A stretch of DNA of 64,000 nt from contig NC_014387.1 of the NCBI RefSeq assembly GCF_000145035.1, forward strand, positions 1,912,001-1,976,000. The letters are read 5' to 3'. How positions within the stretch are numbered: position 1 is the stretch's first letter; the number at the start of each line of letters is the position of its first letter. Made by a program: the position numbers and the translations under genes. The notes beneath the pieces were generated by a model. It made no database searches. It was not told the origin of the DNA and saw only the letters and a program-made list of their open reading frames with translations. Below are positions 7,970 to 58,733 of the stretch, piece after piece. This DNA is from Butyrivibrio proteoclasticus B316. Lineage in GTDB: Bacteria > Bacillota > Clostridia > Lachnospirales > Lachnospiraceae.

Positions 7970-8847
7970 ATTCTCTCGTCAAAATAACTTTTATATCCTT
8001 CTCCAAATATCTCACTTGCGCTGGTAACTATCATAAATGCATTGGGATCTTCTTCCCTCACAATATCTTCAGCCATTGGTGATAGCCTTTTCTTGATAGC
8101 GCACATGATAACCTTTTTCTTCTCACCACTATATGCACCCTGTGCAAACACGTGAGTTGCTCCTATATCCAATTCATCAAGAAGCCTTGCCGTAATAATA
8201 TCCGGATGATCCGAGATAATATAAATCAGCTTGGCTCCATCCCTTCCATAAAGTACAAGATCAAGTACTGATGAAGTAACCATTACTGAAATGAATGAAT
8301 ATAATGCTGCTGTAATATCCTGAAACACGATACCCGCAATGATAAGGACTATCACATCGGTCATAATATATAACATGCCCGTTTTGATGTGAGGATATTT
8401 AAGTCTTAGTATCTTAATTATAACATCAGTACCGCCACTTGTAGCATGTGATTTAAAGATAATGCCCATAGCTACTGCAGAAAGAGCACTTCCAATAGTC
8501 ACACCCAAAATAATATCATTTATATAAAATGCCGATAAATAGGTACTGAAAAAATCTGTAGTTAAAGATATAACCGCAGTTGCGTAAATAGTTGAAATAG
8601 TAAATCTTATACCAAACTTCCAAATAGCCACGATCAAAATAGGAATATTCATAAAAAGAAACCACATACCGGTTCCTATAGGAACAATCCTGTTAAGAAC
8701 AATGGCAAGACCTGTTATACCACCTGGAGCTATATTGTTGGGATCTACCAAAAGTGCTGTTGCAAGTCCGTATATAGAGGATGCAAAAGTAATCAAAAGA
8801 TAGTCCTTAAGTCTGGCCTTAATGCTTGTTTTATTTGTACTGCTCAT
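7966..8847 (-). CDS. YitT-family membrane protein (DUF161/DUF2179)
   Basis: 293 residues: five or so hydrophobic segments between 15 and 190 with the family signature GLATALLVDPNNIAPGGITG, then a cytoplasmic C-terminal DUF2179 domain (KLIYIISDHPDIITARLLDELDIGATHV and KVIMCAIKKR). These proteins are common in Firmicutes in several copies. Transport function has been suggested but I know of no firm substrate. It lies two bases downstream of ilvA. Confidence 0.9.
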   Translation of the reverse strand: MSSTNKTSIKARLKDYLLITFASSIYGLATALLVDPNNIAPGGITGLAIVLNRIVPIGTGMWFLFMNIPILIVAIWKFGIRFTISTIYATAVISLTTDFFSTYLSAFYINDIILGVTIGSALSAVAMGIIFKSHATSGGTDVIIKILRLKYPHIKTGMLYIMTDVIVLIIAGIVFQDITAALYSFISVMVTSSVLDLVLYGRDGAKLIYIISDHPDIITARLLDELDIGATHVFAQGAYSGEKKKVIMCAIKKRLSPMAEDIVREEDPNAFMIVTSASEIFGEGYKSYFDERM

Positions 8848-8848
8848 A

Positions 8849-10075
8849 TTAAATATTTGTCCTTACAATCCTTGGTTTATAGCCTTCAGTGTTAAGAGCT
8901 TCAATGATCTGTTCCTTATGCTCACTTCCAAAAGCCTCAAGAGTTATTCTAAGTTCTACAGCCGCATTCCTGTTAATTGAAACAAACTGATTATGCTCAA
9001 GCTTGATCACATTACCGTTAACGCCCGCAATAACACCGGCAACTCTTGATAATTCTCCAGGTTTATCAGGAAGGAGCACAGAAACTGTAAATATCCTGTC
9101 TCTCATGATAAGGCCCTGCTGAACAACAGATGACATTGTTATAATATCCATGTTGCCGCCAGAAAGAACACAGGCAATTTTCTTGTCCTTGCAGTCGAGC
9201 TGTTTAAGAGCTGCAACTGATAAAAGGCCAGAATTCTCAACAACCATTTTGTGGTTCTCTACCATATCAAGGAATGATACTACCAGATCCTCATCAGGAA
9301 CTGTAATGATATCATCAATGTTTTCAGACAGATATGGGAAAATCTTCTCTCCTGGCTTCTTAACTGCTGTACCATCTGCAATCGTATTAACAGAAGGAAG
9401 CGCAACTACATGTCCGGCCTTGATTGATTCCTGCATACAATTTGCTCCTGCAGGTTCAACACCAATAACTTTAATCTTGGGATTGAGAAGCTTGGCAAGC
9501 GTCGAAACACCTGTAGCAAGGCCGCCGCCCCCGATTGGAACAAGGATATAATCTACAGTTGGAAGCTCCTTGATGATTTCCATTGCAATTGTTCCCTGTC
9601 CGGTTGCAACATCAAGATCATCAAAGGGATGAACCATTGTATAGCCGTATTCCTGAGAAAGCTCTAAAGCCTTCTCATAAGCCTCATCATAGACATTTCC
9701 ATGAAGAACAACCTCAGCTCCAAGAGCCTTGGTTCTGTTAACCTTTATAAGAGGAGTAGAAGTAGGCATGACAATAGTAGCCTTAACTCCGTAGCATTTA
9801 GCTGCATAAGCAACGCCCTGAGCATGGTTACCGGCAGATGCAGTAATAAGACCTTTCTTACGCTCTTCATCAGAAAGAGTTGTAATCTTATAATATGCTC
9901 CCCTAACCTTATATGCGCCGGTTCTCTGAAGGTTCTCAGGTTTGAGATAGACCTTATTTCCTGTGCAATTGCTCCAATAATCACTGTAAATAAGCTTGGT
10001 TTCAAGAGTTACTCTTTTAACATCTTCATAAGCCTCTTCAAACTTATCAAGAGTCATCTTCTTTTCATCTGCCAT
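8849..10075 (-). CDS. ilvA: Threonine ammonia-lyase with C-terminal ACT domain
   Basis: PLP enzyme that deaminates threonine (and serine) to 2-oxobutyrate, feeding isoleucine synthesis or threonine catabolism. The PLP lysine is K56 in GAYKVRGA; the phosphate-binding loop GGGGLATG is at 182-189. About 330-408 form one ACT domain (FTVSVLLPDKPGELSRVAGVI), giving 408 residues, the short TdcB/YgkX-like form rather than the long biosynthetic IlvA with paired ACT domains. ATG 10075 has GGAGGAG seven bases upstream, so a longer frame to 10117 is rejected. It is placed between ftsY and yitT, away from other ilv genes. Confidence 0.92.
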   Translation of the reverse strand: MADEKKMTLDKFEEAYEDVKRVTLETKLIYSDYWSNCTGNKVYLKPENLQRTGAYKVRGAYYKITTLSDEERKKGLITASAGNHAQGVAYAAKCYGVKATIVMPTSTPLIKVNRTKALGAEVVLHGNVYDEAYEKALELSQEYGYTMVHPFDDLDVATGQGTIAMEIIKELPTVDYILVPIGGGGLATGVSTLAKLLNPKIKVIGVEPAGANCMQESIKAGHVVALPSVNTIADGTAVKKPGEKIFPYLSENIDDIITVPDEDLVVSFLDMVENHKMVVENSGLLSVAALKQLDCKDKKIACVLSGGNMDIITMSSVVQQGLIMRDRIFTVSVLLPDKPGELSRVAGVIAGVNGNVIKLEHNQFVSINRNAAVELRITLEAFGSEHKEQIIEALNTEGYKPRIVRTNI

Positions 10076-45378: not shown

Positions 45379-47505
45379 TCACTGAAGTATGTAATCAATT
45401 GTATTTCCTGTAAGGCCAGAGCCCTGGATTCCAAAGAATGCGCTACCACCAGCGTTGATCTGAGAATTCCATGCCTCAGGAGTAATTACATAATACTCTC
45501 CATCTGTGGCAATCTTTACGCACCAGCTTGAATCAATTGTAATCTGGCTCTTTTTAATTCTAAGTGTCCAGCTATTTACTGAACTGCTGCTGTTATTAAC
45601 AACTGCCATGTTGATTGTTACATATCCCTGTCCATTTATTGTGTAATCAAGTGTAAGATCATCATTAATTACAACTGGATCGGGATCTACTGGTGTTGGG
45701 TCTGGATCTACTGGTGTAGGATCTGGATCTACCGGTTCAGGGTCTACTGGATCCGGGTCAACAGGCTGTGGTTCATCTTTCACTTCACCTTCAGCAAACA
45801 ATTCAATCTTATCATTTACATGTGATGAACCCTGGAAACCAAATTCTACTGAACTACCTGGCTCAATTACAGAGTTCCACTCTACAGGAGTGATAACATA
45901 GTAATTACCTTCTTCTGAAACCTTGATATTCCAGCTGGCATCGATACCTACATCATTTTTATTAACCTTAACTGCCCAAGTCTCAACCTTCTGAGATGAG
46001 TTATTAGTAACCTTAACACTTACCTGATAGCCTGAGCCCCAGTTATTAAGTGTATACTCAGTTGTTAAGCCTTCAGCTACAGGCTGTGGATCTGGATCTA
46101 CCGGTGTTGGGTCTGGATCTACAGGGTCAGGATCAACCGGATCAGGATCAACTGGTGTTGGATCTACCGGATCAGGAGTCTGACCATCTTTGATGATTGA
46201 CCATGAATCAAAATCTATAACACCATGCTTAGGAACAAAATAAAGATCGTATGTACCATGAAGATCCGGGAAGTTCAGATATACTGTTGTCCACTCATAA
46301 TCTGAGCATGGAATATTGAGGAACGCAAGCCTTGGCCCATAAGTATCTCCATCATGGATTTCAAGAACGTGAGAGCAATCTGACTTGTAAGTAATAGCTA
46401 TCTTCTCAGCGCCATCAAACTCAACATTCTTAACTACATATGTAACACGAGGACGAAGTCTCTCAACATAAGTTCTGCCATCAGCAGTTTTAACATCAAG
46501 TTTCTCCATAACAGTTGCATCTTCTGCCTCAACTGTAGTATATGGATTAACCTTATCAGTAACAACAGGCTCCGGATCATCTATTGGTTCTTCAGGATCA
46601 GGATTTGGCTTAACAGGAGCTGTCATAGCCTTCCAAGAATCAAAGTGAACTGTAGCACCTGCCATCTTGGCTACAAAGTAAAGGTCATGAGTTCCCTGAA
46701 GGTTCTGAGAAACCTTTACAGCTCTCTCAACAAATTCTTCAGTTGGATTAACCTTAACACTTGAAAGCAGTTCTCCATCTACAGCGTCAATTCTTACTTC
46801 AAGAATTGCTGCCTTTGTAGCCTTAGAATTAACTATAAGTGCTGCTACACCTTTAGAGAAATCTACATTTGAAGCTACAGCGTAACCATCAGCTCTGATA
46901 GCAAGATATGTAGTATTGCCGGAAGTCATCTCTGCTGCAAATTTTCTGTTAACACAGCTCTCTGCTTCTACTGTTGTATAAGGATCAATTGAACCATAAA
47001 CAGGTGTTGGATCTGGCTCAGTAGCAGTCTCTCCCTTTTCAGCACTCCAGTAATCTACAGAAGCATTTCCTACAACGCCGACAAAAGCAATTGTATGTTT
47101 GCCCTCAAGATTCTTCATTTTGGCGCTAAAAGTCTTAAACTCGCCATTTGTAGAACCTATCTTGATATTTCCAAGAACCTCTCCATCAACACCATCTTTT
47201 CTTACTTCAATTACAGAAGCAGAATCAGCTCTTGCTGTAAGTGAGATCTTAGAAAGGCCTTCGCTGAAATCAACATCCTTAACAAGCCAGTAATCGCCGG
47301 CTTCAATTTCTGTCAGAACAGTAATCTTGCTGTTATTGTATACCTCAGGAGACTGTACTACGCCTTCTCTGCCAAAGTTGAGCTCTGCCTGAACTACTCC
47401 GTAAGGATCGATCTTAGGAGCTGCAAGAGCTGTAACGCTAGTTGCAGAAGCTACACTAGTTGCAACTAAAAGTCCACAAATAAGCATTGAAATACTTCTC
47501 TTCAT
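45379..47505 (-). CDS. Secreted multi-CBM protein: three CBM6-like and two CBM2-like modules, no catalytic domain
   Basis: 708 residues with a Sec signal peptide (cleavage near ALAAP, about 29). Three related beta-sandwich modules of CBM6/CBM35 type occupy about 31-158, 172-294 and 318-437, each starting with DPY(T/G)xVxAE and ending near a conserved DSW. Pro/Asp/Val linkers (442-475, 577-610) connect two CBM2-like modules (477-572, 611-708) with the pattern YYVITPxxWN and FGxQGS. No glycosidase, esterase or dockerin is present. It probably sits on plant cell-wall cellulose and hemicellulose outside the cell; attachment to the cell is not evident. AGGGGG precedes the ATG. Confidence 0.85.
45673..45765 (-). 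repeat. Linker-coding tandem repeat (second Pro-Asp linker)
   Basis: Degenerate 12- to 18-base units built on GGATCTACTGG encode [11 protein letters not shown]. Coding, in frame, between the two CBM2-like modules. Confidence 0.8.
46082..46185 (-). repeat. Linker-coding tandem repeat (first Pro-Asp linker)
   Basis: Same unit as the linker at 45.7 kb, between the third CBM6-like module and the first CBM2-like module. Confidence 0.8.
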
Positions 47506-47722: not shown

Positions 47723-47750
47723 ATTATAAAGTTATTACATTTTTTGTCAA
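47723..47750 (-). promoter_or_regulatory. Promoter of the multi-CBM gene
   Basis: Minus-strand consensus -35 TTGACA (47745-47750), 16-base spacer, -10 TATAAT (47723-47728). Leader of about 210 bases. Confidence 0.8.
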
Positions 47751-47784: not shown

Positions 47785-50256
47785 TCAGCTGTTCTCATTT
47801 ACATAGATAGATAATCGGCTCTGAATGATATCTGCAGCCTCTTTAGCGCTCTTCTGACCGCTGTAATATGCCGAAGCTTCCTCAAAAATAATATTATTAA
47901 CATTTGAGTTGTAATTATTAACAAGAGTAAGTGACTTGATAAAATTGGTTACCTCCAGGACCTCATCTTTAGATAGAGGCTTGAGAGGAATATCCTGGCC
48001 GCCAATGTAGCATGTATCCTCATACTCCACCTTCTTGCCATCTTCAATATAATATGGCTTGTGAGTAATCTCTTCAGCCTTTTTATCATAGCTTGATTTT
48101 CTGATAGGGAAACAGTAGCAATCATCCTGATACTCTTCTGTAAGGAACATCTTAAGGTATTCCCATGCGGCATCTTTATTCTTGCTCTGTGAACTAATTG
48201 CAAGGCGCTTGCTTGGATAAATGATTGAGTTGTTGATACCCATATCATTTGGATATCCTACAAAAGAAATATCCGTTCCAAACATTCCCTGTTTCCAATA
48301 CTGATATTCGCGGAAATCACTAAAGGACATAATGCAGAACAATGCATCATCAGTCCTGTACAAAGTATCTTTATAATCTTCCCACACATTATCAGGATAT
48401 TCTTCTACAAAGTCCTTGCTGAATTCAAGGAATTCAATGAATGATTCACTGTCAAAGTGACAGGTCTTATTTTCCCAGTCAATATAAGTATTTCCTGAAT
48501 ATCTGATTCCCTGCTCAAGGAAGCCCTCTCTGGTCTCAAGACCAAATGCTGTCTGCTTGTTTGAACCCATTGATTTCATCAATTCATCACAATCTTTAAA
48601 GGTAAGATAGTCTCTTCCTTCTGCATACTTGGACTTCATGATCATAGTTGAAAAATAGAAGCTTGGAACAAGCTGGTAAAGCTTATCCCCTGTCTTAAAT
48701 GCATCAACTATGTTCGTGATCATATCATTTTCTGTAATATCAGGATCATTTTGTAAGTAGTGAGTAAGATCAGTAAATAAGCCCTTGTTGATATAACTAT
48801 CAACTGGAAGATCATCAGAAATCACAAGAATATCAGGTGTATTTCCCGAAATAATATCCATATTAAGCTTTTCTGATCCGGCATTATAGTTCTCTTCGGT
48901 AGCATATGAAGAATAGTCAACAAACTTGATCTTATATTCACTATTGTTTTTATTAAATGCAAAAGCAAGTTTTCTTACATCATAATCAATATAGTTTCCG
49001 CCAAGAGTAATTATCTTCTTTTCCTTAACATCTTCAGGGGCGACTTTGGTCAATCTTGCAAGGTAGAAGTTATAATCAGCATCAGGAAGGCATGCTACAA
49101 ATTCGCCATCACTTATTGCAGCTGCAGAAGGAATAGAGCCACTGCTTTCTATGTCTGAATCAATATAATCAACAAGCTTAGTCATTGAATCACTTGCAAT
49201 ATCATAACCAAATATGCCGTTACTATCACTCATGTAAAGGTCATACCCATTACCACCAAAAAATGATTTCTCAGAATATGCGGTTATTGCTTTAGACGGA
49301 GTTCCTATAGTGCCGGATTCAGGGTCAAAAGTACACAGATTATTTCCGTTATCATCATAATATGAAACAAACAGCTGTCCTTTAAAGCCTTTATAAAGCT
49401 GATAGTACAAATAATCGGAGGTGCTTTTATTCTCTATTATTTTCTTAAAGCCTTTATTAGAAGAATAACTGATAATTCCCTGTTCCAGACTCATGATACA
49501 AGTTCCATCGTCAGTAACAGCAAAACTGTTTACTGAAATATACTCTTCTTGTGGGAATTCAGCTTTTAGATCAACTTTTTCAAGAAGATTTCCATCCTTG
49601 TCATATTTAACAAGATATATTTCATCGTCACCGGATTCTTCAGGCATCATCTTAGAATCAAAGTCATCTTCCGATGATACATCTTCAGTAGCTTCACCTT
49701 CTGAAACATCTTCAGCAGCCTCTGTAATTTCAGTTGCCTCTGCAGATGCCGAAGCTGTCGGCTCTTCCGTCAAAGATGCCTCCACATCTGCACTGTTTTC
49801 CAGCTCAGAGCTTTCCGGAGTTTCTGCATCATCGTAAATATGCATTTCGCCATCTTCATCCTCATAGCTCCAGGAATAAACATTGTCAATTCCGTAAATA
49901 TTGCCATCTGCATCAAAGCTTATATAAGCAAAATTCTCATTTTCTGTGCAAGGAATCTTTACTGTTTCAACATCAGAGCCATCAGAATTAAAGCTATAGA
50001 TTTCTATATGGTCATCTATGTTATAAGTCGAAGCATAAACCCTGTCTCCCACATTGGAAACTCTGTTTATCTTGCTCATATATTCTGCAAAGTCATAAAT
50101 CTCTGTTGCAAATACATAATCCTTGGAAGACTTGGATGCTTCATTTAATATGCTGTCATCCGAACCACTTTTCTTGCCACAACCATATGTACTGACAGCA
50201 AGCACTGTTGCCAACGACAGACACAACCCCTTCTTGATAAATCTCCTCATTTTCAT
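47785..50256 (-). CDS. Solute-binding lipoprotein with N-terminal propeller-like domain
   Basis: 823 residues. N-terminal signal MKMRRFIKKGLCLSLATVLA ends at STYGC, a poor but plausible lipobox. Residues about 40-385 have repeated strand motifs (FDADGNIYGIDN, FAVTDDGTCIMSLEQG, LFVSYYDDNGNNLCTFD) typical of a beta-propeller, interrupted by an acidic Ser/Glu/Ala-rich insert near 140-215. From about 410 a cluster-type solute-binding fold follows (KIITLGGNYIDYDVRKLAFAFN ... NTPDILVISDDLPV). Last gene of the mosaic operon; the MalF/MalG-like permeases upstream are its natural partners. ATG 50256 is preferred for AGAGG five bases away. Ligand unknown. Confidence 0.82.
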   Translation of the reverse strand: MKMRRFIKKGLCLSLATVLAVSTYGCGKKSGSDDSILNEASKSSKDYVFATEIYDFAEYMSKINRVSNVGDRVYASTYNIDDHIEIYSFNSDGSDVETVKIPCTENENFAYISFDADGNIYGIDNVYSWSYEDEDGEMHIYDDAETPESSELENSADVEASLTEEPTASASAEATEITEAAEDVSEGEATEDVSSEDDFDSKMMPEESGDDEIYLVKYDKDGNLLEKVDLKAEFPQEEYISVNSFAVTDDGTCIMSLEQGIISYSSNKGFKKIIENKSTSDYLYYQLYKGFKGQLFVSYYDDNGNNLCTFDPESGTIGTPSKAITAYSEKSFFGGNGYDLYMSDSNGIFGYDIASDSMTKLVDYIDSDIESSGSIPSAAAISDGEFVACLPDADYNFYLARLTKVAPEDVKEKKIITLGGNYIDYDVRKLAFAFNKNNSEYKIKFVDYSSYATEENYNAGSEKLNMDIISGNTPDILVISDDLPVDSYINKGLFTDLTHYLQNDPDITENDMITNIVDAFKTGDKLYQLVPSFYFSTMIMKSKYAEGRDYLTFKDCDELMKSMGSNKQTAFGLETREGFLEQGIRYSGNTYIDWENKTCHFDSESFIEFLEFSKDFVEEYPDNVWEDYKDTLYRTDDALFCIMSFSDFREYQYWKQGMFGTDISFVGYPNDMGINNSIIYPSKRLAISSQSKNKDAAWEYLKMFLTEEYQDDCYCFPIRKSSYDKKAEEITHKPYYIEDGKKVEYEDTCYIGGQDIPLKPLSKDEVLEVTNFIKSLTLVNNYNSNVNNIIFEEASAYYSGQKSAKEAADIIQSRLSIYVNENS

Positions 50257-50283
50257 AATCTCCTCTCTTAAGAACATTAAGTA

Positions 50284-51552
50284 TTATTCGCTATCCTTAG
50301 ATGCCAAAAGCCTTTCTTTTTGTTTTGACTCAAGTTCATATTTTTTATCTGCCACGTACGAAAGAAGCCCTTCAACTGTCCATTTTTTATTCCTATATGC
50401 AATCACAACAAGCACTGCGACCAAAACTGCGAGGGCAACTATGCTTATCAATCTGATCATGTTCAATATGGCGAGCACATCTTCATATCCTCTTGCCACA
50501 TTCTCCCAGTATGGATAAAAAATAGGCTTGTCCCACATGCTTCTGATTCCAAAGTTAGAACTCACTTCCAAAAGCTTAAAGAATGAAAATCTGTCTGAAT
50601 TATCAACCACATTGATATACTTATCATCGAGTCCTGAACATTCCTTGATGATCTTGGCAAGAAGACCATCTACAGGGCTTGGGCAGACAATTTCATAGCA
50701 GTTGATGCCACCTATATTGGCGTTAAGGCCATCTTCTGACAGTTCTTTATCCATAGTCTTACCACTTAAAATCTCTCCGTACTTTGACAGAGAGTCATAA
50801 GACATATACACAATACTGGAAGTCAGCCCAGCAGCCTCATTAAATCTGCCTTCTTTTCTTTTTACAACTCCTGCGACATAGTGATTGATCCCGCCTATAG
50901 TCACGCACTGCCCCACTATATCATTAGAGCCAAAGAGCTGCCACGCAAGATCCTCATCAATGACAATCTTATCCTTCATAAGATCATCAGCCATAAAAAA
51001 TGACCCGCTTACAAGTTCAAGGGGATGGAAAAAGAAAAAATCACCGTCAACTCCAATAGAGATAACATTCTCAGCAGTTCTATTTTCAAAAACAATATTT
51101 GATATTCCCTGCGCACTATAGCAGCTGTTGTAAACTTTTATAACATCATTGTTTTCAGACTGGCTGTTATCAGAACTTCCGCTATTATCACTACCGCCAA
51201 GTTCTACAGTATCAACTATTTTTTTCCCGCCTGCAGATTCTTTTTCTTTATCATCAATTGCTACAACTCCTGCATCGGCAAGCTTTTTAACCATAGAGTA
51301 TTCGATTCTCTTAATATCTTCCGGAGCTATCGATCTGTCTTCTGTAAAAAAGAGGCTTACCTGAGCAACATTACCGTCATAGTCCCATCTGCTTGCAGCA
51401 AGCTGTTCTGGCAAATGCGAAACAATTATCCTGCAGAGCATTCCCATGATAACATCAATAAGCAGTAAAACCACGATAATGATAAGGACAATATTTCTTT
51501 TTTTATTAGAAAAAAACTTCTTAATCTGTTTCCAAATCAATTCAAAAAACAT
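50284..51552 (-). CDS. Reduced MacB-like membrane protein (periplasmic-core domain, no FtsX domain)
   Basis: 422 residues. One N-terminal membrane segment (about 20-45), an extracellular MacB-like core (about 60-350, with VSGSFFMADDLMKDKIVIDEDLAWQLFG and IVGQCVTIGGINHYVAGVVK), one C-terminal membrane segment (about 363-386) and a short basic tail. A real MacB permease has four membrane segments with the FtsX domain; here three are missing, so it cannot form the usual transporter. It overlaps the HlyD-like adaptor gene by one base, matching the MacA-MacB pairing. Probably a structural or sensory partner. Confidence 0.78.
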   Translation of the reverse strand: MFFELIWKQIKKFFSNKKRNIVLIIIVVLLLIDVIMGMLCRIIVSHLPEQLAASRWDYDGNVAQVSLFFTEDRSIAPEDIKRIEYSMVKKLADAGVVAIDDKEKESAGGKKIVDTVELGGSDNSGSSDNSQSENNDVIKVYNSCYSAQGISNIVFENRTAENVISIGVDGDFFFFHPLELVSGSFFMADDLMKDKIVIDEDLAWQLFGSNDIVGQCVTIGGINHYVAGVVKRKEGRFNEAAGLTSSIVYMSYDSLSKYGEILSGKTMDKELSEDGLNANIGGINCYEIVCPSPVDGLLAKIIKECSGLDDKYINVVDNSDRFSFFKLLEVSSNFGIRSMWDKPIFYPYWENVARGYEDVLAILNMIRLISIVALAVLVAVLVVIAYRNKKWTVEGLLSYVADKKYELESKQKERLLASKDSE

Positions 51553-53147
51553 TATTCGTTTGCAAGCCTCACCTGTTCTCCTGCCTTAACAGGCTTATTA
51601 GAAGTTGTGATGACAAACTCATCTCCATCAAGAGCAGCTGTGATAGCTGAATAATTATCATCTGAAGCAACTACGTCAACATCAACTTTAGTAGCAATAT
51701 ACCTGTTTCCAAGAGGGCTGGATTTAGACTTAACAGCCAATACAAACTTGGATGTAGTTCCTGTCTTAATAGCACTGTTTGGAACAACCATATCATAGTC
51801 TACGGCTCTCTCTCCTATAGAAAGAGCTATACTTTGTCCGGGTGTTACATCTGTACTCTCAATCTTAAAAGTGAGCAGTTTTTTGCCGGATGGATCTGTT
51901 TTATCATTTTTAATAGATGTGAGTGTTGCTCTAAAGTCATCACTAAACATCCAGGAGTTCTGTGGTCTTGCAGCATCTCCGACATGAAGTTTCTGTGCCT
52001 GGGCATTGGTCACAGAAAAACTTGTAGTCATATCTTTGCCATCTATCTGAATTACAGCGATTGTCTCATCAGCTGATATTGACTCACCAGATGCCTTATT
52101 AACCTGAGAAACGATTCCAGCTACAGGTGCTTTAACTGAAGCTCCGACTGACTCCTTTTCAAGCTGGGCAATTTTCTCTTTCTGCTCCTTGATACTGTCT
52201 CTTTGATCACAAAGAGCTATTTCAACGTTAATGCTCTTAACCTGCTTATCCTTCTCTTCTTCAGCCTTTTCCAACTCTTTCTTGGCTGCAGTTTCATTAG
52301 CCTTGGCTTCTATAAGTTTCTGATCATAGCCGATTCCAACCTGACTCTTGTATGTCTCAAGCTCAGTTGTCTCTCTTTTATTCTCGTCTTCAATATGAGT
52401 CCATTCTTTTTTAGCCTTTTCAATAGCTTCTGTATCGTTTGGATCATATGTGTAGTCGATCAGCTTCTTCTGATAGTCAGCATTGGCATTCTCATAATTG
52501 TAAGTAAGAGTCTGGTACTCGATTTCATTTTTGTCATGGTTCTGCAGATCTGTCAGATATTCAACAGCCTTAGTAGCTGCATCTGCAACCGCTTTGGCAG
52601 CATCATATCTGTCATTTACCGCTTTGAGCTGGATCTGATAAGTATCATAGGAAGTAGTATTTCCACTTCTTACTTTGGAAATTACATCATCAGGAACATC
52701 ACCCGAAAACAGTGACTGTTCATATGCAAGTTCAAGTTTCTCCAGATTTTCTCTGGCTGTCTTAAGTTCTTCTGACTCTTTGTCCTCAAGATAAAAGAGA
52801 ACATCGCCTATCTCAACATGAGAGCCTTCCTTAACTGCTACTCCTGAAACCTTTCTTGTCTCCTTGAGAGTAACATTGTAAGGATCTTCCGCATTTACAG
52901 TTCCGGTTCCTCTGATCTGCGGGCTAACCGAGCCTCTTGAAATCTGCTGAGTAGCAACCTGAGGAAGTGTGTAATTCATAATTGTATTAGAAAAGAAAGT
53001 AAGAATTAGCATGACAGACAAAAATGCTATTGCGACATTTTTGATCATATCCTTTTTATTAGCCGGTTTCTTATCTCTGCTGGAAGAAACAACGTTTCCA
53101 TCAACTACCTCAACAACATCGTTATCTTTTGAAAATAAATCTGACAT
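51552..53147 (-). CDS. HlyD/MacA-like membrane-fusion (adaptor) protein
   Basis: 531 residues. One N-terminal membrane segment (about 37-57), then an RGxGTVNAED barrel-sandwich start, a long coiled-coil hairpin (about 130-345), lipoyl-like return (ASVKAPVAGIVSQVNKASGE) and C-terminal beta-barrel domains. In Gram-positives such adaptors accompany MacB-like exporters and sensors. The gene precedes the reduced MacB-like gene with one-base overlap and follows the MalG-like permease gene by 45 bases. Confidence 0.88.
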   Translation of the reverse strand: MSDLFSKDNDVVEVVDGNVVSSSRDKKPANKKDMIKNVAIAFLSVMLILTFFSNTIMNYTLPQVATQQISRGSVSPQIRGTGTVNAEDPYNVTLKETRKVSGVAVKEGSHVEIGDVLFYLEDKESEELKTARENLEKLELAYEQSLFSGDVPDDVISKVRSGNTTSYDTYQIQLKAVNDRYDAAKAVADAATKAVEYLTDLQNHDKNEIEYQTLTYNYENANADYQKKLIDYTYDPNDTEAIEKAKKEWTHIEDENKRETTELETYKSQVGIGYDQKLIEAKANETAAKKELEKAEEEKDKQVKSINVEIALCDQRDSIKEQKEKIAQLEKESVGASVKAPVAGIVSQVNKASGESISADETIAVIQIDGKDMTTSFSVTNAQAQKLHVGDAARPQNSWMFSDDFRATLTSIKNDKTDPSGKKLLTFKIESTDVTPGQSIALSIGERAVDYDMVVPNSAIKTGTTSKFVLAVKSKSSPLGNRYIATKVDVDVVASDDNYSAITAALDGDEFVITTSNKPVKAGEQVRLANE

Positions 53148-53176
53148 CTCCCAATTACTCCTAACCTTTTTACTTT

Positions 53177-53195
53177 TGATCTGCAGTGCAGATCA
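53177..53195. other. Perfect 9-bp inverted repeat at the malG-like 3' end
   Basis: TGATCTGCA and TGCAGATCA flank one base; the repeat includes the stop codon of the permease gene. Loop too short for a stable RNA hairpin at full length, so a protein site or chance. Confidence 0.4.
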
Positions 53196-54119
53196 CCCCT
53201 TAATTCCTCCCTGGTATGAGATACCCTCTACCAGATAATCCTCGCCGTACAGAAATATCAGAAGCGGCGGGACCAGATATATTACAGCAACTGCAAAAGC
53301 AAGACTGATTTCACCTGCGTTTATCTTGGACAGGAACACCGACAAAGGATGCATATCCGGGTCCGGTAAAAGAATAAGCGGCTGCTCAACCATATTCCAA
53401 TAATCAAAAAATACTAAAATTGCTATAGAAGCAATTCCCCCCTTACAAAGAGGAAAACATATCCTCGAAAAAATGTACCATTCATCTGCTCCATCAATCG
53501 AAGCAGCCTCCATCACCTCAGTAGGTATCCTTCTCATAAATTTGGTGAGAAGATAAACCGCAAATGGTGAGAAAATACCCGGAAGCCATATGGCCCATTT
53601 TGTACCATAAATACCTATTGCCTTGGAAACCAGAAAATTCGGAACAAGCGTAACCTGGTACGGCATCAGCATCATGATAATATATGCAAAAAATATAGCA
53701 TTCTTAAGTTTACCTTGATACCTGGCAAAACCATAGCTTGCCAAAGTAGCAATTCCAAGCTGAAAAACAACAATCGGCACAACATATATAAGTGAATTCC
53801 AGAACTTAAACAAATATTCCGGACTCTTGAACAATACTGTATAGTACTGGGCAAAAGAAACCATATCCGGTATAAACTTAAGATTTACAGTCTTGGATAT
53901 GAATACCTTGCCGCCCTTTTCCGTAGTTGCAAATATGCTGCCGTAATTGGCACTTATTTCCGATGCAGCCATAAAAGAATTCGTAACCGTAAGTATAGTC
54001 GGTAAAAGAAATATGAAGGCAAAAACAATAGCTGCTAACGTTACAAGAATTGTCTTAAAATTATTTATATGTATTTTTTTCTTTTTATATTTGTTTCTAA
54101 AATTTACCTGTGCAGTCAT
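53193..54119 (-). CDS. MalG/AraQ-type ABC permease
   Basis: 308 residues with six membrane segments and EAA loop EAASIDGADEWYIFSRICFP. Pairs with the MalF-like gene directly upstream. The true start is ATG 54119, with GGAGGG nine bases upstream and overlapping the end of the preceding gene; the upstream extension to 54173 is not real. Confidence 0.9.
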   Translation of the reverse strand: MTAQVNFRNKYKKKKIHINNFKTILVTLAAIVFAFIFLLPTILTVTNSFMAASEISANYGSIFATTEKGGKVFISKTVNLKFIPDMVSFAQYYTVLFKSPEYLFKFWNSLIYVVPIVVFQLGIATLASYGFARYQGKLKNAIFFAYIIMMLMPYQVTLVPNFLVSKAIGIYGTKWAIWLPGIFSPFAVYLLTKFMRRIPTEVMEAASIDGADEWYIFSRICFPLCKGGIASIAILVFFDYWNMVEQPLILLPDPDMHPLSVFLSKINAGEISLAFAVAVIYLVPPLLIFLYGEDYLVEGISYQGGIKG

Positions 54120-54123
54120 ATGT

Positions 54124-55047
54124 TCATCCCTCCAGATCTCTTCCAAACCAGTTTTCGACTGCATACATAGCATAAACCAAAACTGTTACTACGATGAACA
54201 TAATAATTGCAGCTGCTGAGAGCTTCTGATAATCAAGTGAAGCAAATGTATTGTTCATAAAGTGCTGAAGCATATAAAGTGTCTGATATGGATAATCTCC
54301 CGTCATCAGATATACTTCCCTAAATACCTTGAAGGAACTGATAAGGGACATTATCGCTACAAACAGGATAGTTGAAGACATATATCTGACTTTCACTATC
54401 CAGAACACTTGAAGCTTATTGGCATTCTCCAGAGCCGCCACTTCCAAAAGATCCTTGGGAATACTTGCAAGTGCTGACATGAACAGGATCATGTTGTAGC
54501 CCAGGTTCTTCCATAAAAACAGCGCAACAATTACAATATACGCCTTGTCTGATTTGAGCCAGTCTATCTTGTCCTGCCCAAATACATTTAAAAAGTTATT
54601 AACTATGCCGTTCTGATGAAACATTACCTGCCAGATCAGAACAACCGACGCTGTCGGCACCATCAAAGGGCTTAAGAAAAAAGTCCTGAAATAGCTCTTA
54701 AAGGGAATCCTTGATTCCATAACAGCCGCCAAAAAAAGCGATAGTAAAACCGCAAGCGGTACAGCCATCAGTGAAAAAATAAAGGTGTTAGAACCCGCCT
54801 GTTTGAAAGCTGCATTGTTCCAAACATTTACATAGTTCTGAAATCCTACAAATTCCTTCTGAATAGGGTTATTTATCAGTGAATAATAAATAACAACAAT
54901 AAACGGCGCCACAAAAAACAGCATGACACCAAGAAGTGAAGGCAGAAGAAAAAGCCAGGAGATCAGCTTTTTCTTCTGTAGTGATGAAAGCTTATGATCA
55001 AAACGATTATTTAATTTATTATGGTGAGATAAACAAAACTTTTTCAA
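54124..55047 (-). CDS. MalF/UgpA-type ABC permease
   Basis: 307 residues, six membrane segments, coupling loop EVAALENANKLQVFWIVKVR. The canonical EAA-Gly-loop (EAAxxDGA) is altered to EVAALENANK, losing the conserved Gly-Ala, so ATPase docking may differ. TTG 55047 is the only plausible start, three bases after the stop of the YtrC-like gene. The N-terminal 25 residues are unusually polar. Confidence 0.86.
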   Translation of the reverse strand: MKKFCLSHHNKLNNRFDHKLSSLQKKKLISWLFLLPSLLGVMLFFVAPFIVVIYYSLINNPIQKEFVGFQNYVNVWNNAAFKQAGSNTFIFSLMAVPLAVLLSLFLAAVMESRIPFKSYFRTFFLSPLMVPTASVVLIWQVMFHQNGIVNNFLNVFGQDKIDWLKSDKAYIVIVALFLWKNLGYNMILFMSALASIPKDLLEVAALENANKLQVFWIVKVRYMSSTILFVAIMSLISSFKVFREVYLMTGDYPYQTLYMLQHFMNNTFASLDYQKLSAAAIIMFIVVTVLVYAMYAVENWFGRDLEG

Positions 55048-55050
55048 AAC

Positions 55051-57231
55051 TCAATTGGTATCTGCATAAATATAATCAGGTACCTTCCCCATTTCAAATG
55101 AAAAGTAGCTCTGCTGAGCATTCATCATGTCTTTTTTATTATTCTTAAAGTTTACGATAACAACAAACTGTTCATTTAAGTTCCTCTTGTACCAGGAACA
55201 ATAATAGTCGTTGCATATCACTTTTTCTATTATATCCCTAATCTTATCATTTTCGGTATATACAAATGATTTAGAATCAACATTTATAGAATTTATGTCA
55301 AAATCCTCATCTTCCATATTGTAGCCGGGATAATAGTTAGTTACTTCAATAGAATCAATTGAATCGATATCTATTGAATCATCCACAAAGACACCATATT
55401 TTTTAAGAAGCTCTATCGTATTAGTGTACGTCTTATATACATTAAAACCGCAGTTACAGTAGCCATCATAGACACTATTCAAATAGTCCACTCTGCCAAT
55501 TGGTACCTGAGTGCTGACCAATTTATAACTGAAACTGTTCTCCAGATCCTTGCAATAAGCATCGCTAAGCTCAGCGTAAGTCATCTCCGTTGTAGTCATT
55601 ACTCTTCCCGGAGCATTGTACTGAATTTTCCTGGTCTTATGGTTTAATTCATCAAACTCTCTTACCTTATCGTCATGAAAAACAGGTGCTGATCCTCTAA
55701 TATATTCTTTAGAATCAATGATAGATGACAGCAAATTCTCATCAATATCGTAAGGAATACATATTTCCCTGTAAACCATTTTTCCATTCTTTAACCTGTA
55801 AAGAACAGTATTATTCCTGCCAAGATCCTGATAGTTGCCTTCTCTGTCAAATTTAACCCACTCTTTTTGAGTCTTAAGGCCTGCCTGAACAAGCTTGTTA
55901 AATGTCTCAATATCAGTTAATTCCATATAATCCTCTGGCAAAGAGACATAATTCATATCACTATGACCATCATAAAGCCTGAAATCATAATCTTCTCTAA
56001 GAAGTGCACAGCTCTCAACCTTGGAAGCGCTTGGGATATAGCTGTCATAGCCAATAAGATCACCTCTGAACACAATAAAGATAAGAGATACGATTGCAAG
56101 AGCCATAACGTTCTGTGCCATACCTTTGAATACACTTCGAATATTGCCGTCAAAGAGAACCTCAATTACGCAACCGGTTATGATAACTGCCATCAGCATA
56201 ACAGCAAACATAATTGTGACAAAACGAGAACTATACCACATGTAATAGTTCATCTCATAGAAAACCACTCCGCATCCAATGCCCAAAAGTACACAGGATA
56301 TTACTTTGACCAGCCATCTAAACGGCCTGTAGCAGATAGTTTTACCGGCATGCTCAGCTTTTCTGAATCTGCTGACTAAAATAACAAGTGCAAAAGCTAT
56401 CATTCCTGTTATAAGGATATCAATCTCATAATCAACAGTCATGTCTATCCACTTATTCAAAATGTCAAAACATGCAATATTTGTACTATTAAGCTTTAAA
56501 TCGTTAACAAGTCTAAGCACTGCCACCCTGTCAAAAAGCGGAGAGCCTATAATGCCATATGTGTCCCTGTTAGCATAAGTTGCAAAGAATATGTTTTTCA
56601 AAGCCTTCAGTTCATATCCAAAAGCTGTAGTCACTGCCATAAAAAAGGCAAGAACCAGCATTGATATTAGTGGCGTGCCACTAAGCATAATGGCCAGAAC
56701 CGTAATATTATAAATTGCAAAAAACAGTACGATTGCTTTTACTGTTTCATAGAGAACTACTACTATTACAGCCCCGTTAACGGCTCCAAGAATAGCAGCC
56801 AATAAAAGAGCAACAATATTTACAGACAAATACATAAGAATAAATGTAGTAATAGCGTTAAAATAGTTCTTCTTGATCCTCTGCCCTCTTGTAGTAGGCT
56901 GACTTAAGTAAAAATCAATCTTATTTGATTCAAACACATAAGAAAAGCCTTGAAAAGCAAAGGCAATTGCAATAAGTACAACCAATATCCAGCCAAGCTG
57001 TTCCATCCCCAGAACTCTGAATGCAGCATTTATCTTTTCCATTTTGATACGTTCTGGCGACTGATGAAACACTCTTCCGTAATTTATTGACCTGGCCACC
57101 ATAAATGCTGTGCCGAGTACATAATAGATTGCCATAAGGACAAATCCCAGCATAGATGACCACAAAGTTCTTGTAATATATTTTTTGTGATTAGATATTC
57201 TGTTACTCAAGGATAAACTTGCGGATGTCAT
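55051..57231 (-). CDS. YtrC-like ABC-2 permease with large extracellular C-terminal domain
   Basis: 726 residues. About ten membrane segments lie within the first 400 residues, with the ABC-2 cytoplasmic loop FYLSQPTTRGQRIKKNYFNA and a YtrC/YtrD-like segment (CYRPFRWLVKVISCVLLG). Residues about 405-726 form a soluble extracellular domain rich in Asp, Tyr and Asn that I cannot assign. ATG 57231 has GGAGG nine bases upstream and overlaps the ATPase gene by 29 bases. It should couple to that ATPase. Substrate and direction unknown. Confidence 0.82.
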   Translation of the reverse strand: MTSASLSLSNRISNHKKYITRTLWSSMLGFVLMAIYYVLGTAFMVARSINYGRVFHQSPERIKMEKINAAFRVLGMEQLGWILVVLIAIAFAFQGFSYVFESNKIDFYLSQPTTRGQRIKKNYFNAITTFILMYLSVNIVALLLAAILGAVNGAVIVVVLYETVKAIVLFFAIYNITVLAIMLSGTPLISMLVLAFFMAVTTAFGYELKALKNIFFATYANRDTYGIIGSPLFDRVAVLRLVNDLKLNSTNIACFDILNKWIDMTVDYEIDILITGMIAFALVILVSRFRKAEHAGKTICYRPFRWLVKVISCVLLGIGCGVVFYEMNYYMWYSSRFVTIMFAVMLMAVIITGCVIEVLFDGNIRSVFKGMAQNVMALAIVSLIFIVFRGDLIGYDSYIPSASKVESCALLREDYDFRLYDGHSDMNYVSLPEDYMELTDIETFNKLVQAGLKTQKEWVKFDREGNYQDLGRNNTVLYRLKNGKMVYREICIPYDIDENLLSSIIDSKEYIRGSAPVFHDDKVREFDELNHKTRKIQYNAPGRVMTTTEMTYAELSDAYCKDLENSFSYKLVSTQVPIGRVDYLNSVYDGYCNCGFNVYKTYTNTIELLKKYGVFVDDSIDIDSIDSIEVTNYYPGYNMEDEDFDINSINVDSKSFVYTENDKIRDIIEKVICNDYYCSWYKRNLNEQFVVIVNFKNNKKDMMNAQQSYFSFEMGKVPDYIYADTN

Positions 57232-58108
57232 ACCCAACTACCTCCGTTTCACTGATAAATATCTCCTCAAGAGAAAGTGGCAGCACTTCAAAGAAAACAG
57301 GATTACCACGTTTAAATGCAGCCTCGATCTCTTCTCTTTCTCCCCTCATGGTAATTGTATGAAGGCGTCCTCTCTTATCATGAAGCAATATATCAAGTCC
57401 CTCAAGAGCTCTTTCTTCATCACCGTCACCAGCGAATACACATTGAACCTTCTGCATTTTGAGTTTCATGTCGCTAAGGTCCTCTGAGAGAATAACACCG
57501 CCCTGATGAAGAAGACCTATATGATCGCAGATATCTTCAAGCTCTCGTAGATTATGAGAAGCTATAACAGGCGTTAGTCCTCTGTCAGCCATCTCAGCTG
57601 CAAACAAGCTCTTAACCCCCTGTCTCACAACCGGATCAAGACCATCAAAGGTCTCATCGCATAACAGGAACTTGGTTCCCGAACATATCCCAAGGAGAAT
57701 TGACACCTGCTTTTTCATACCTTTTGAAAAAGTACTGATCTTGCGCTTTATATCCAGTCCAAAGCCGCTGCACAATTTAAAAAATCTGAGTTTGTCGAAC
57801 TTGTCATATATTTCTTCGTAATAATCAGCCATCTCTTCCGGTGTGCTATTAGGAAGAAAATACTGATCATCTGATATAAAAAAGATGTCCTTTTTAACCT
57901 CAGGATTATCATATACAGGTCTGTTGTCTATACAGACAATTCCCTTATCAGGTTTGATAACCCCGGCAATAATCCTCAGGATCGTACTCTTACCTGCACC
58001 ATTTGTTCCGACGAGTCCAAACACTTCACCATCTCTGATTGACAGTGATACATGATTGACTGCCTTGATGTCGTCAAATGATTTGTATAATTCCAGTAAC
58101 TCAATCAT
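57203..58108 (-). CDS. ABC transporter ATPase (YtrB-like)
   Basis: 301 residues. Walker A GTNGAGKST near 38, signature FSKGMKKQVSILLG, Walker B FLLCDETFDGLDP, switch His in ASHNLREL. Belongs to the exporter (ABC-2) branch, not the sugar-importer MsmK branch. Overlaps the GntR gene by four bases (ATGA). It is the only ATPase of the operon. Confidence 0.93.
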   Translation of the reverse strand: MIELLELYKSFDDIKAVNHVSLSIRDGEVFGLVGTNGAGKSTILRIIAGVIKPDKGIVCIDNRPVYDNPEVKKDIFFISDDQYFLPNSTPEEMADYYEEIYDKFDKLRFFKLCSGFGLDIKRKISTFSKGMKKQVSILLGICSGTKFLLCDETFDGLDPVVRQGVKSLFAAEMADRGLTPVIASHNLRELEDICDHIGLLHQGGVILSEDLSDMKLKMQKVQCVFAGDGDEERALEGLDILLHDKRGRLHTITMRGEREEIEAAFKRGNPVFFEVLPLSLEEIFISETEVVGYDIRKFILE

Positions 58109-58524
58109 GCCTTGCCTCCCTTATCATTTCCCCTTGTTTGTAGACCACCATTTTGGCTACTAATCTGACCTATCTTACTCTTTATCTCTTTGATAAGATC
58201 TTCAATAGGAATTCCGATTTCTTCAGCTTCTCTGAACAACTTGACAATAGCATCAATCAGCTCGCTTTTCTTATTATCCATAAGTGAAGCATTGCCTTTA
58301 ACAAAATTCCCCCTTCCCTTCACTGTATAGATAAAGCCCTGACGTTCCAGCTCTGCATAAGCCTTCTGTACAGTGTTGGGATTAGTAGATAATTCCATAG
58401 CCAGACTCCTGACCGATGGCATCTGCTCATCAGCCTGCAAAATACCCTTGTACATCTGAAGTTTGAAATTCTCTACAATTTGTTCATAGATAGGTCTGCT
58501 GTCCTGATAATCAATTAGATTCAT
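58105..58524 (-). CDS. GntR-family repressor, YtrA subfamily
   Basis: 139 residues: winged helix (PIYEQIVENFKLQMYKGIL, MPSVRSLAMELSTNPNTVQKAY, VKGRGNFV) plus a short C-terminal helical tail of about 55 residues, the layout of YtrA, which represses ABC operons in response to cell-envelope stress in Bacillus. First gene of the operon. A symmetric site at 58617-58637 lies in its promoter. Confidence 0.93.
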   Translation of the reverse strand: MNLIDYQDSRPIYEQIVENFKLQMYKGILQADEQMPSVRSLAMELSTNPNTVQKAYAELERQGFIYTVKGRGNFVKGNASLMDNKKSELIDAIVKLFREAEEIGIPIEDLIKEIKSKIGQISSQNGGLQTRGNDKGGKA

Positions 58525-58616
58525 ATCATCCCCACCATAATCAATTAGTTGCTGCAGTCATAACTCTGCAAGTGTTATATTTGTTACATTTTATGACTGA
58601 CCAGATGTATATTAAC

Positions 58617-58637
58617 TGTACTAGCATAACTAGTACA
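58617..58637. promoter_or_regulatory. Operator of the YtrA-like repressor
   Basis: TGTACTAG and CTAGTACA, exact inverted repeats around CATAA. They fill the spacer of a candidate promoter (-35 TGTACT 58632-58637, 17 bases, -10 TAATAT 58609-58614), where binding would exclude polymerase. Confidence 0.72.
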
Positions 58638-58689
58638 CTTATACACTACTACCATACACGAAATAATGCAAGCATTTTTGTATGAATGC

Positions 58690-58733
58690 AAAAAGATTTC
58701 CTACTTTAACATAGTATACGAAGTAGGAAATCT
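58690..58733 (-). terminator. Terminator of the UPF0210/PFL gene
   Basis: AGATTTCCTACTT (58694-58706) with AAGTAGGAAATCT (58721-58733), then five U on the minus strand. Confidence 0.87.

Follow-up and report, generated by a model that had tools for sequence, protein, structure and literature searches.

The main finding of this study is that a probable sugar-uptake pump with two export-type surface proteins is encoded by a conserved gene set in Butyrivibrio proteoclasticus B316 and its relatives, and that this set is an uncharacterised import-export hybrid of many gut and rumen bacteria. The window analysed here is a stretch of 64,000 nucleotides (nt) from this bacterium (NCBI RefSeq assembly GCF_000145035.1, contig NC_014387.1, positions 1,912,001 to 1,976,000, in a genome of 4.40 Mb in 4 contigs). 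Within it, eight open reading frames (ORFs) lie at 58524-47785, all on the minus strand, with overlaps or with gaps of no more than a few dozen nt between them, as had been described in an earlier note made from the sequence alone. In gene order, their Pfam matches are GntR, ABC_tran, DUF6449, BPD_transp_1 twice, HlyD_3, MacB_PCD and SBP_bac_1, and these include the parts of a type I ATP-binding cassette (ABC) importer, namely two BPD_transp_1 permeases and an SBP_bac_1 protein. We refer to the MalF-like and MalG-like permeases, the HlyD/MacA-like adaptor and the protein with the MacB periplasmic core domain (MacB_PCD) as the core, and to the GntR regulator, the ABC ATPase and the DUF6449 permease ahead of it as the cassette; a solute-binding protein (SBP) is encoded last. 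On balance, we favour the view that the core is an importer of oligosaccharide type, powered by a MalK/MsmX-type ATPase and carrying a fixed HlyD-MacB_PCD assembly on the cell surface.

The evidence begins with the recurrence of the core. Searches by MacB_PCD, MalF and MalG, which are pooled in our locus counts except in one comparison that keeps them apart, retrieved 178 loci with a MalG above 200 bits, of which 165 are distinct. The full set of four core genes, all on the same strand, is present in 147 of these 165 loci, across the Clostridia. Of the 74 core-bearing genomes in the window's genus, 45 have the cassette next to the core. The mosaic of import and export parts in the earlier description is thus a conserved one. 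As we read them, the other 18 loci comprise 11 contig ends, four conflicts of ORF choice that were resolved and three cases that are apparently real (L278, L280 and L283). The median intergenic gaps within the core are -2.5, 18 and 5 nt (154 loci), and chance adjacency of the genes is ruled out by the recurrence and by these conserved gaps. In three reordered loci (L267, L276 and L277) HlyD and MacB_PCD precede MalF and MalG, and the partnership is kept. When the searches are kept apart, the 80 loci found through MalF alone include 72 with both HlyD and MacB_PCD, seven that end less than 3.2 kb past MalG and one (L162) without the pair, so that the pair is present in 72 of the 73 loci that are not cut off. 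Among 23 loci found through MalG, 16 have both genes, four end within 3.2 kb and three have no scored MacB_PCD, although one of these three (L282) holds a candidate of 15 bits. SBP genes stand before or after the core, which has no ATPase of its own in the window.

A search of the taxonomic family with MacB_PCD gave matches with E <1e-15 in 40 of 396 genomes and 29 of 280 genera. These 40 are among 101 genomes with matches at E <=1e-3; the next best match stood at 6.8e-8, and the weaker matches were not accepted as members. Three places of weak MacB matches (L095-L097) have neither MalF nor MalG beside them and were rejected as core loci. The order-level search added one strong-match genome from another family (G580), the class-level searches found MacB_PCD in 28 of 391 genomes at E 1e-14 and MalG in 47 of 391 at E 1e-60, and the phylum-level search found MalG in 5 of 259 genomes, two of them from the window's genus. 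Within this genus, core MalG exceeds 500 bits in 74 of 79 genomes, with the next matches at 145 bits or less, and each of the five genomes without it is less than 90% complete. Judged by its sequence, core MalG is a separate clade. The alignments used below were made on subsets (A1, 43 of 57; A2 and A3, 42 of 54; A4, 64 of 78; A5, 42 of 57), each with the window added. A Pfam scan of 101 of the 151 listed neighbour proteins, drawn from 89 loci of Lachnospiraceae and other Clostridia, found no family in more than five of them, on which grounds a catabolic operon for one sugar was rejected, and no recurrent signalling partner, with at most three response regulators. In two loci of one genus (L058 and L082), a MacAB-like set of an ATPase, an HlyD-like protein and a MacB-like permease lies one gene, about 1.3 kb, past the core.

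The MacB-like protein of the window has a predicted transmembrane (TM) helix at each end, and Pfam finds in it neither an FtsX match nor an ATPase domain. Its AlphaFold2 (AF2) model, with a mean predicted local distance difference test score (pLDDT) of 87.9, consists of a TM helix at residues 17-45, a periplasmic core domain, a second TM helix within residues 348-387 and a helix at 393-421, and its best structural matches by Foldseek are 5xu1, MacB and YknZ. By Kyte-Doolittle scans, which are a crude measure, two TM segments are found in 129 of 154 distinct MacB_PCD proteins, and the 17 proteins with four or more segments all come from loci L260-L279. In a FastTree phylogeny of MalF plus MalG from 58 chosen loci, in which the split can be trusted but not the root, 40 loci with one to three segments are separated from 16 with at least four (and two without a scored MacB_PCD) with a support of 0.998. 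None of ten multi-segment or distant MacB proteins matches Pfam FtsX, while all match MacB_PCD, one of them below the cut-off. This suggests that the membrane bundle of these ten proteins is divergent too. Four TM segments are taken as ancestral for MacB-like proteins. Because of this and the split in the tree, the stripped MacB looks like one derived reduction in the clade that includes the Lachnospiraceae.

Another question is which ATPase drives the MalF/MalG pair. The best NCBIfam relatives of the window ATPase, all below cut-off, are PmtA, DrrA, a lantibiotic-protection ATPase, LptB and GldA, which belong to the export branch. In seven distant loci (L219, L234, L262, L263, L284, L285 and L286), by contrast, a MalK-type ATPase gene follows MacB_PCD directly, at gaps of +3 to about -50 nt when counted from the first possible start, and mostly overlapping. 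Four of these genes (L219, L234, L262 and L263) encode OB_MalK and TOBE_2 by Pfam, and those of L284-L286 were assigned on their blastp scores against the L263 protein (402-411 bits). A MalK-type ATPase also lies within the cluster in L278, after a short HlyD-like ORF, and upstream in L282. OB_MalK (PF17912) was found in 42 of 44 core genomes. The single copy in the window's own genome (L287, 370 aa) is 55% identical to the L263 protein and has as neighbours a PucR-type regulator, a GGDEF protein and a DUF624 protein, with a DUF3502 lipoprotein further on; no permease gene was seen beside it. Since a MalK-type gene follows MacB_PCD in distant loci and OB_MalK is so widespread in core genomes, the exporter-type ATPase of the window is an unlikely driver of MalF/MalG. 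It has been established that one ATPase, MsmX, is shared by many sugar importers (PMC7658222), and such sharing is also reported for transporter B of Clostridium thermocellum (PMC9601137).

The EAA loops of the two permeases, which are candidate sites of ATPase docking, differ from each other. In MalG, the D-G and P positions are kept in 143 of 143 rows. In the 144 rows of the main MalF set, the G position is S in 77, G in 34 and N in 23, and the final P position is R in 123 and P in one. In 24 MalF ORFs of more distant loci, however, the motif ends in P in 16, in V in four and in R in two, with two off-pattern, and therefore the altered loop is not tied to the adaptors and characterises one part of the family. 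The cassette-less locus L073 has a similar altered loop, as judged by eye, and we claim no link between altered loop and cassette. The loop counts and the alignment thus agree with the earlier note on the altered MalF, as do the results described above on its two other readings, an ATPase of the exporter branch and a MacB-like protein without an FtsX domain.

In contrast to the core, the cassette is narrowly distributed. Synteny was compared in 60 retrieved loci: 37 with the core from Lachnospiraceae genera other than the window's (L058-L094), 20 of the window's genus and the three non-core places, where the assignment to the window's genus follows our own list by kinship rows and record titles. 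DUF6449 was found within 3.5 kb of the core in none of the 37 loci of other genera, 33 of which are informative because the contig begins inside the core in L060, L066, L067 and L087. The cassette adjoins the core in 13 of the 20 loci of the window's genus, and among all core loci retrieved, solely those assigned to this genus have DUF6449 at a distance of 3.5 kb or less. Of the 74 core-bearing genus genomes, 45 have their best DUF6449 match next to the core, 23 have it at another place and six have none, although in some of the 29 without an adjoining cassette the contig ends close to the core. Loci with and without the cassette can have neighbours in common (gene clusters c6, c8, c10 and c11), so that its gain or loss took place at a single site. 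By this distribution, the cassette is a lineage-specific addition in front of the core. Since a membrane partner (DUF6449), a regulator and an operator all accompany its YtrB-type ATPase, the cassette resembles an independent transporter with which the core shares a promoter. In L170 (7604-7984) and L195 (9408-9779), a YtrA-like GntR gene (52 and 58% identical) overlaps MalF, with no ATPase and no DUF6449; in L093 an unclassified ABC ATPase without OB_MalK stands just upstream of MalF. Together with L267, considered below, these loci indicate that parts of such cassettes have joined the core more than once, separately.

The operator is conserved along with the cassette. The site GTACTA-N7-TAGTAC upstream of the GntR gene is perfect in 17 of 21 distinct regions, has one mismatch in three and four mismatches in one (L103), these regions being related to each other and not independent. 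The same site has three or four mismatches in each of seven cassette-less loci tested, and not one of 2000 shuffles of the bases in the window region gave a perfect copy. By analogy with the ytr operon, the cassette may respond to wall stress (PMC12772383).

The lipoprotein cysteine of the SBP, Cys33, is invariant in 65 alignment rows, and its AF2 model (mean pLDDT 85.9) is all-beta at about residues 56-427, with some 26 strands, followed by the SBP fold. The earlier note had called it a propeller-fused SBP. The all-beta N-terminal half and the SBP fold agree with this, and the half would fit a propeller, but Pfam named no propeller family for it and gave one weak Reg_prop match in one relative. 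The nearest solved structures are sugar-binding proteins, with CbpC (7x0o) first by sequence and by fold. In family f62 (L248-L259), confined to one genus, 7 of the 12 retrieved loci (L248, L249, L253-L256 and L258) have a GH94 phosphorylase, GH9-CBM3 or GH5 cellulase gene (GH, glycoside hydrolase family) downstream of the core, at 35 nt in L249, about 100 nt in L256 and several kb in others. These loci are not independent, and their GH genes point to beta-glucan oligosaccharides in f62. Two or three diverged SBP paralogs stand in tandem after the core in L100, L101, L108 and L109, suggesting ligand diversification. Locus L264 we take to be the cbpC operon ('transporter C', Cthe_2125-2128) of C. 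thermocellum; compared by eye, one stretch of its SBP ORF reads like chain 7x0o of CbpC. The order there is CbpC, an AAA-like protein, MalF, MalG, HlyD in two ORFs and MacB_PCD, with HlyD at 8634-9987 in overlapping ORFs, one of 300 aa and the other of 152 aa. In the available part of their paper, Yan et al. name an acrA gene in the legend of the transporter figure only (PMC9601137), and changes in expression of the cbpC operon have been mentioned elsewhere (PMC8303734).

We propose that MalF, MalG, HlyD, MacB_PCD and the SBP would act as one functional unit, a type I (MalFGK2-like) ABC importer. Lipid-anchored SBPs would capture the ligand, and a MalK/MsmX-type ATPase, whose gene lies at another place in the genome, would drive the MalF/MalG pair. 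Atop the importer, the membrane-anchored HlyD and the MacB core domain would form a permanent extracytoplasmic assembly, probably a collar, or a short conduit across the wall, by which the SBP is kept in place or long ligands are led to MalF/MalG. The MacB component would derive from an exporter subunit, and the clade containing the Lachnospiraceae would have lost the membrane bundle while keeping the domain that holds the adaptor. In the window's genus, a YtrA-regulated ABC-2 cassette would then have been added ahead of the core, placing it under a YtrA-type operator. From the conserved linkage we infer a physical complex, and the class of ligand, the direction of transport and the role of the adaptor are likewise our inference. 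More tentatively, and with less confidence than in the importer itself, we suggest that there may be a Clostridia-wide class of importers in which a captured exporter adaptor and periplasmic core make up a permanent wall-spanning entry conduit, a monoderm counterpart of the Mce rings in the import of lipids.

Several observations weigh against the importer proposed here. L278, L280 and L283 hold related permeases without a recognisable MacB_PCD, two of the 44 core genomes have no OB_MalK match (G082 and G357, drafts that are 93 and 91% complete), and docking of the ATPase on an altered-loop MalF may differ. An ABC-2 ATPase and an ABC2_membrane permease lie just upstream of the core, ahead of HlyD, in L267, and the mixed neighbours around the core in Lachnospiraceae and other Clostridia indicate no single nutrient. 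In C. thermocellum, growth of the transporter C mutant on glucose, cellobiose and Avicel was normal, and a loop is reported to block the pocket of CbpC (PMC9601137). In conflict with this, the table of a review gives dissociation constants of 0.28-0.49 micromolar for glucose to cellopentaose, and the text of the same review states that transporter C facilitates cellodextrin uptake (PMC11212667).

Other explanations were weighed. HlyD and MacB_PCD might be an independent unit for export or stress sensing that borrows an ATPase from elsewhere and has no more than its expression in common with a sugar importer. MacB proteins outside the reduced clade have at least four TM segments, so that an exporter-like permease may once have functioned, and the B. 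subtilis ytr operon is now proposed to encode two independent transporters (PMC12772383). We nevertheless consider an independent unit unlikely: no MacB-type ATPase gene recurs beside HlyD-MacB_PCD, the one that recurs directly after it being MalK-type; the reduced clade has no permease bundle and still keeps the partnership with MalF/MalG; and the pair is missing from a single one of the 73 uncut MalF-found loci. Less probable again is the model of the earlier note, in which all eight proteins form one envelope complex with the YtrB-type ATPase as its single source of power. The tight spacing and overlaps, the adjoining cassette in 45 of 74 genomes and the one conserved operator are what such a complex would predict, and the ABC-2 pair in L267, the ATPase in L093 and the lone GntR genes in L170 and L195 could be read in the same way. 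However, core and cassette are separable. The ATPase genes directly after distant cores are MalK-type, the window genome has a MalK-type ATPase, and the YtrB-type ATPase has a membrane partner of its own. The eight-gene order expected in relatives is therefore kept for the four core genes but not for the cassette, which is away from the core in 29 of 74 genus genomes and beside it in none of the 33 informative loci of other Lachnospiraceae genera.

We give slightly less credit still to the idea that the core is a ligand sensor and not a transporter, in which divergent-EAA MalF/MalG would report SBP occupancy to the envelope. The altered loop conserved in the main set, the lack of shared catabolic neighbours, and the blocked pocket of CbpC and normal growth of the mutant (PMC9601137) would all suit a sensor, as would the two-component system inside the L282 cluster. 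Against this, the MalF motif ends in P in most distant ORFs, the MalG loop is canonical throughout, MalK is encoded in the operon in seven loci, and the 101 scanned neighbours contain no recurrent signalling partner. In L282 (8391-16049), the two-component system lies between a gene for a 465-aa lipoprotein-like protein and MalF, and the MalK-type ATPase gene is upstream.

Features of the eight-gene cluster and its upstream region, in window coordinates
Feature	Position	Strand	Basis
GntR regulator, YtrA type, 139 aa	58105..58524	-	Pfam GntR; best NCBIfam PmtR, below cut-off
ABC ATPase, exporter (ABC-2/YtrB/PmtA) branch, 301 aa	57203..58108	-	Pfam ABC_tran; NCBIfam relatives
YtrC-like permease with DUF6449, 728 aa; cassette gene 3	55051..57237	-	Pfam DUF6449
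MalF/UgpA-like permease, altered EAA loop, 307 aa; core gene 1	54124..55047	-	Pfam BPD_transp_1, alignment
MalG/UgpE-like permease, canonical EAA loop, 308 aa; core gene 2	53193..54119	-	Pfam BPD_transp_1
HlyD/MacA-like adaptor, N-terminal TM helix, 531 aa; core gene 3	51552..53147	-	Pfam HlyD_3, alignment
MacB periplasmic core domain between two TM helices, 422 aa; core gene 4	50284..51552	-	Pfam MacB_PCD, AF2, Foldseek
Lipoprotein, all-beta N-terminal half and SBP_bac_1 domain, 830 aa	47785..50277	-	Pfam, AF2, Cys33
YtrA-type operator AGTGTA-N13-TACAGT	58615..58639	-	upstream of GntR gene
Terminator-like hairpin, 13-bp arms, T tail	58694..58733	-	between upstream gene and operon; read by eye

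The ATG at 54119 is the most probable start of MalG, in which case it would not overlap MalF. The adaptor also matches NCBIfam RND_mfp, below cut-off, and the hairpin is not among the sites of a scan with a loop limit of 8. Low-confidence acidic or Ser/Asn-rich insertions lie at 49640-49830 (SBP residues ~151-214) and 51140-51230 (MacB_PCD residues ~108-137). On the same strand, 3' of the operon, a gene at 45379-47505 encodes a 708-aa secreted repeat protein with proline-rich linkers, preceded by a perfect TTGACA-16-TATAAT at 47723-47750.

ABC importers and exporters are commonly regarded as distinct architectures, and HlyD and MacB parts are annotated as efflux components by default. In many gut and rumen Clostridia, HlyD and MacB belong to an import-type permease pair, and some of these efflux annotations may be wrong. 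The reduced and multi-segment forms of MacB provide a natural experiment on the repurposing of a transporter part. In the open-access literature we found nothing on the combination of HlyD, MalF and MacB in Lachnospiraceae, which does not imply its absence from print. The HlyD and MacB_PCD partners, which the available part of the CbpC study does not discuss, also offer a testable reason for the conflicting CbpC data (PMC9601137).

Among known systems, the cbpC operon of C. thermocellum has in common with the window a CbpC-like SBP, MalF, MalG, HlyD and MacB_PCD. It differs in that CbpC (460 aa) lacks the propeller half, MacB has six predicted segments, HlyD is in two overlapping ORFs, an AAA-like gene separates CbpC from MalF, and the GntR cassette is missing. 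The CUT1 importers with a shared MsmX or MalK (MalFGK2, LpqY-SugABC and AraNPQ-MsmX) resemble the window in their permease pair, class of SBP and, on the reading proposed here, an ATPase encoded elsewhere. The window differs from them by its two fixed adaptor genes of exporter type, by the altered EAA loop of MalF and by the propeller-like half of the SBP. MacAB, the Gram-positive YknXYZ and the pneumococcal exporter 5xu1 share with it an HlyD/MacA-like adaptor adjoining a MacB periplasmic core domain. MacB-type exporters have four TM helices, but the protein of the window has two and no FtsX match, lacks a MacB-type ATPase beside it and is coupled to an importer pair. Mce importers carry an extracytoplasmic ring or conduit on an importer, with the ATPase sometimes encoded apart. 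The likeness to them is an analogy of layout and not homology, as the permeases are unrelated and Pfam found no MCE domain among the eight window proteins. Finally, the ytrGABCDEF operon of B. subtilis resembles the window in its YtrA-like GntR regulator, its YtrB-like ATPase, a MacB-core protein (YtrF) and a near-matching operator, the published YtrA site, AGTGTA-13bp-TACACT, differing by one mismatch (PMC8060467). The YtrC-like permease is so assigned by name and order and not by comparison with YtrC. Unlike the ytr operon, the window has no second permease YtrD, no YtrE ATPase and no full-length YtrF, and it carries the importer pair and HlyD in between.

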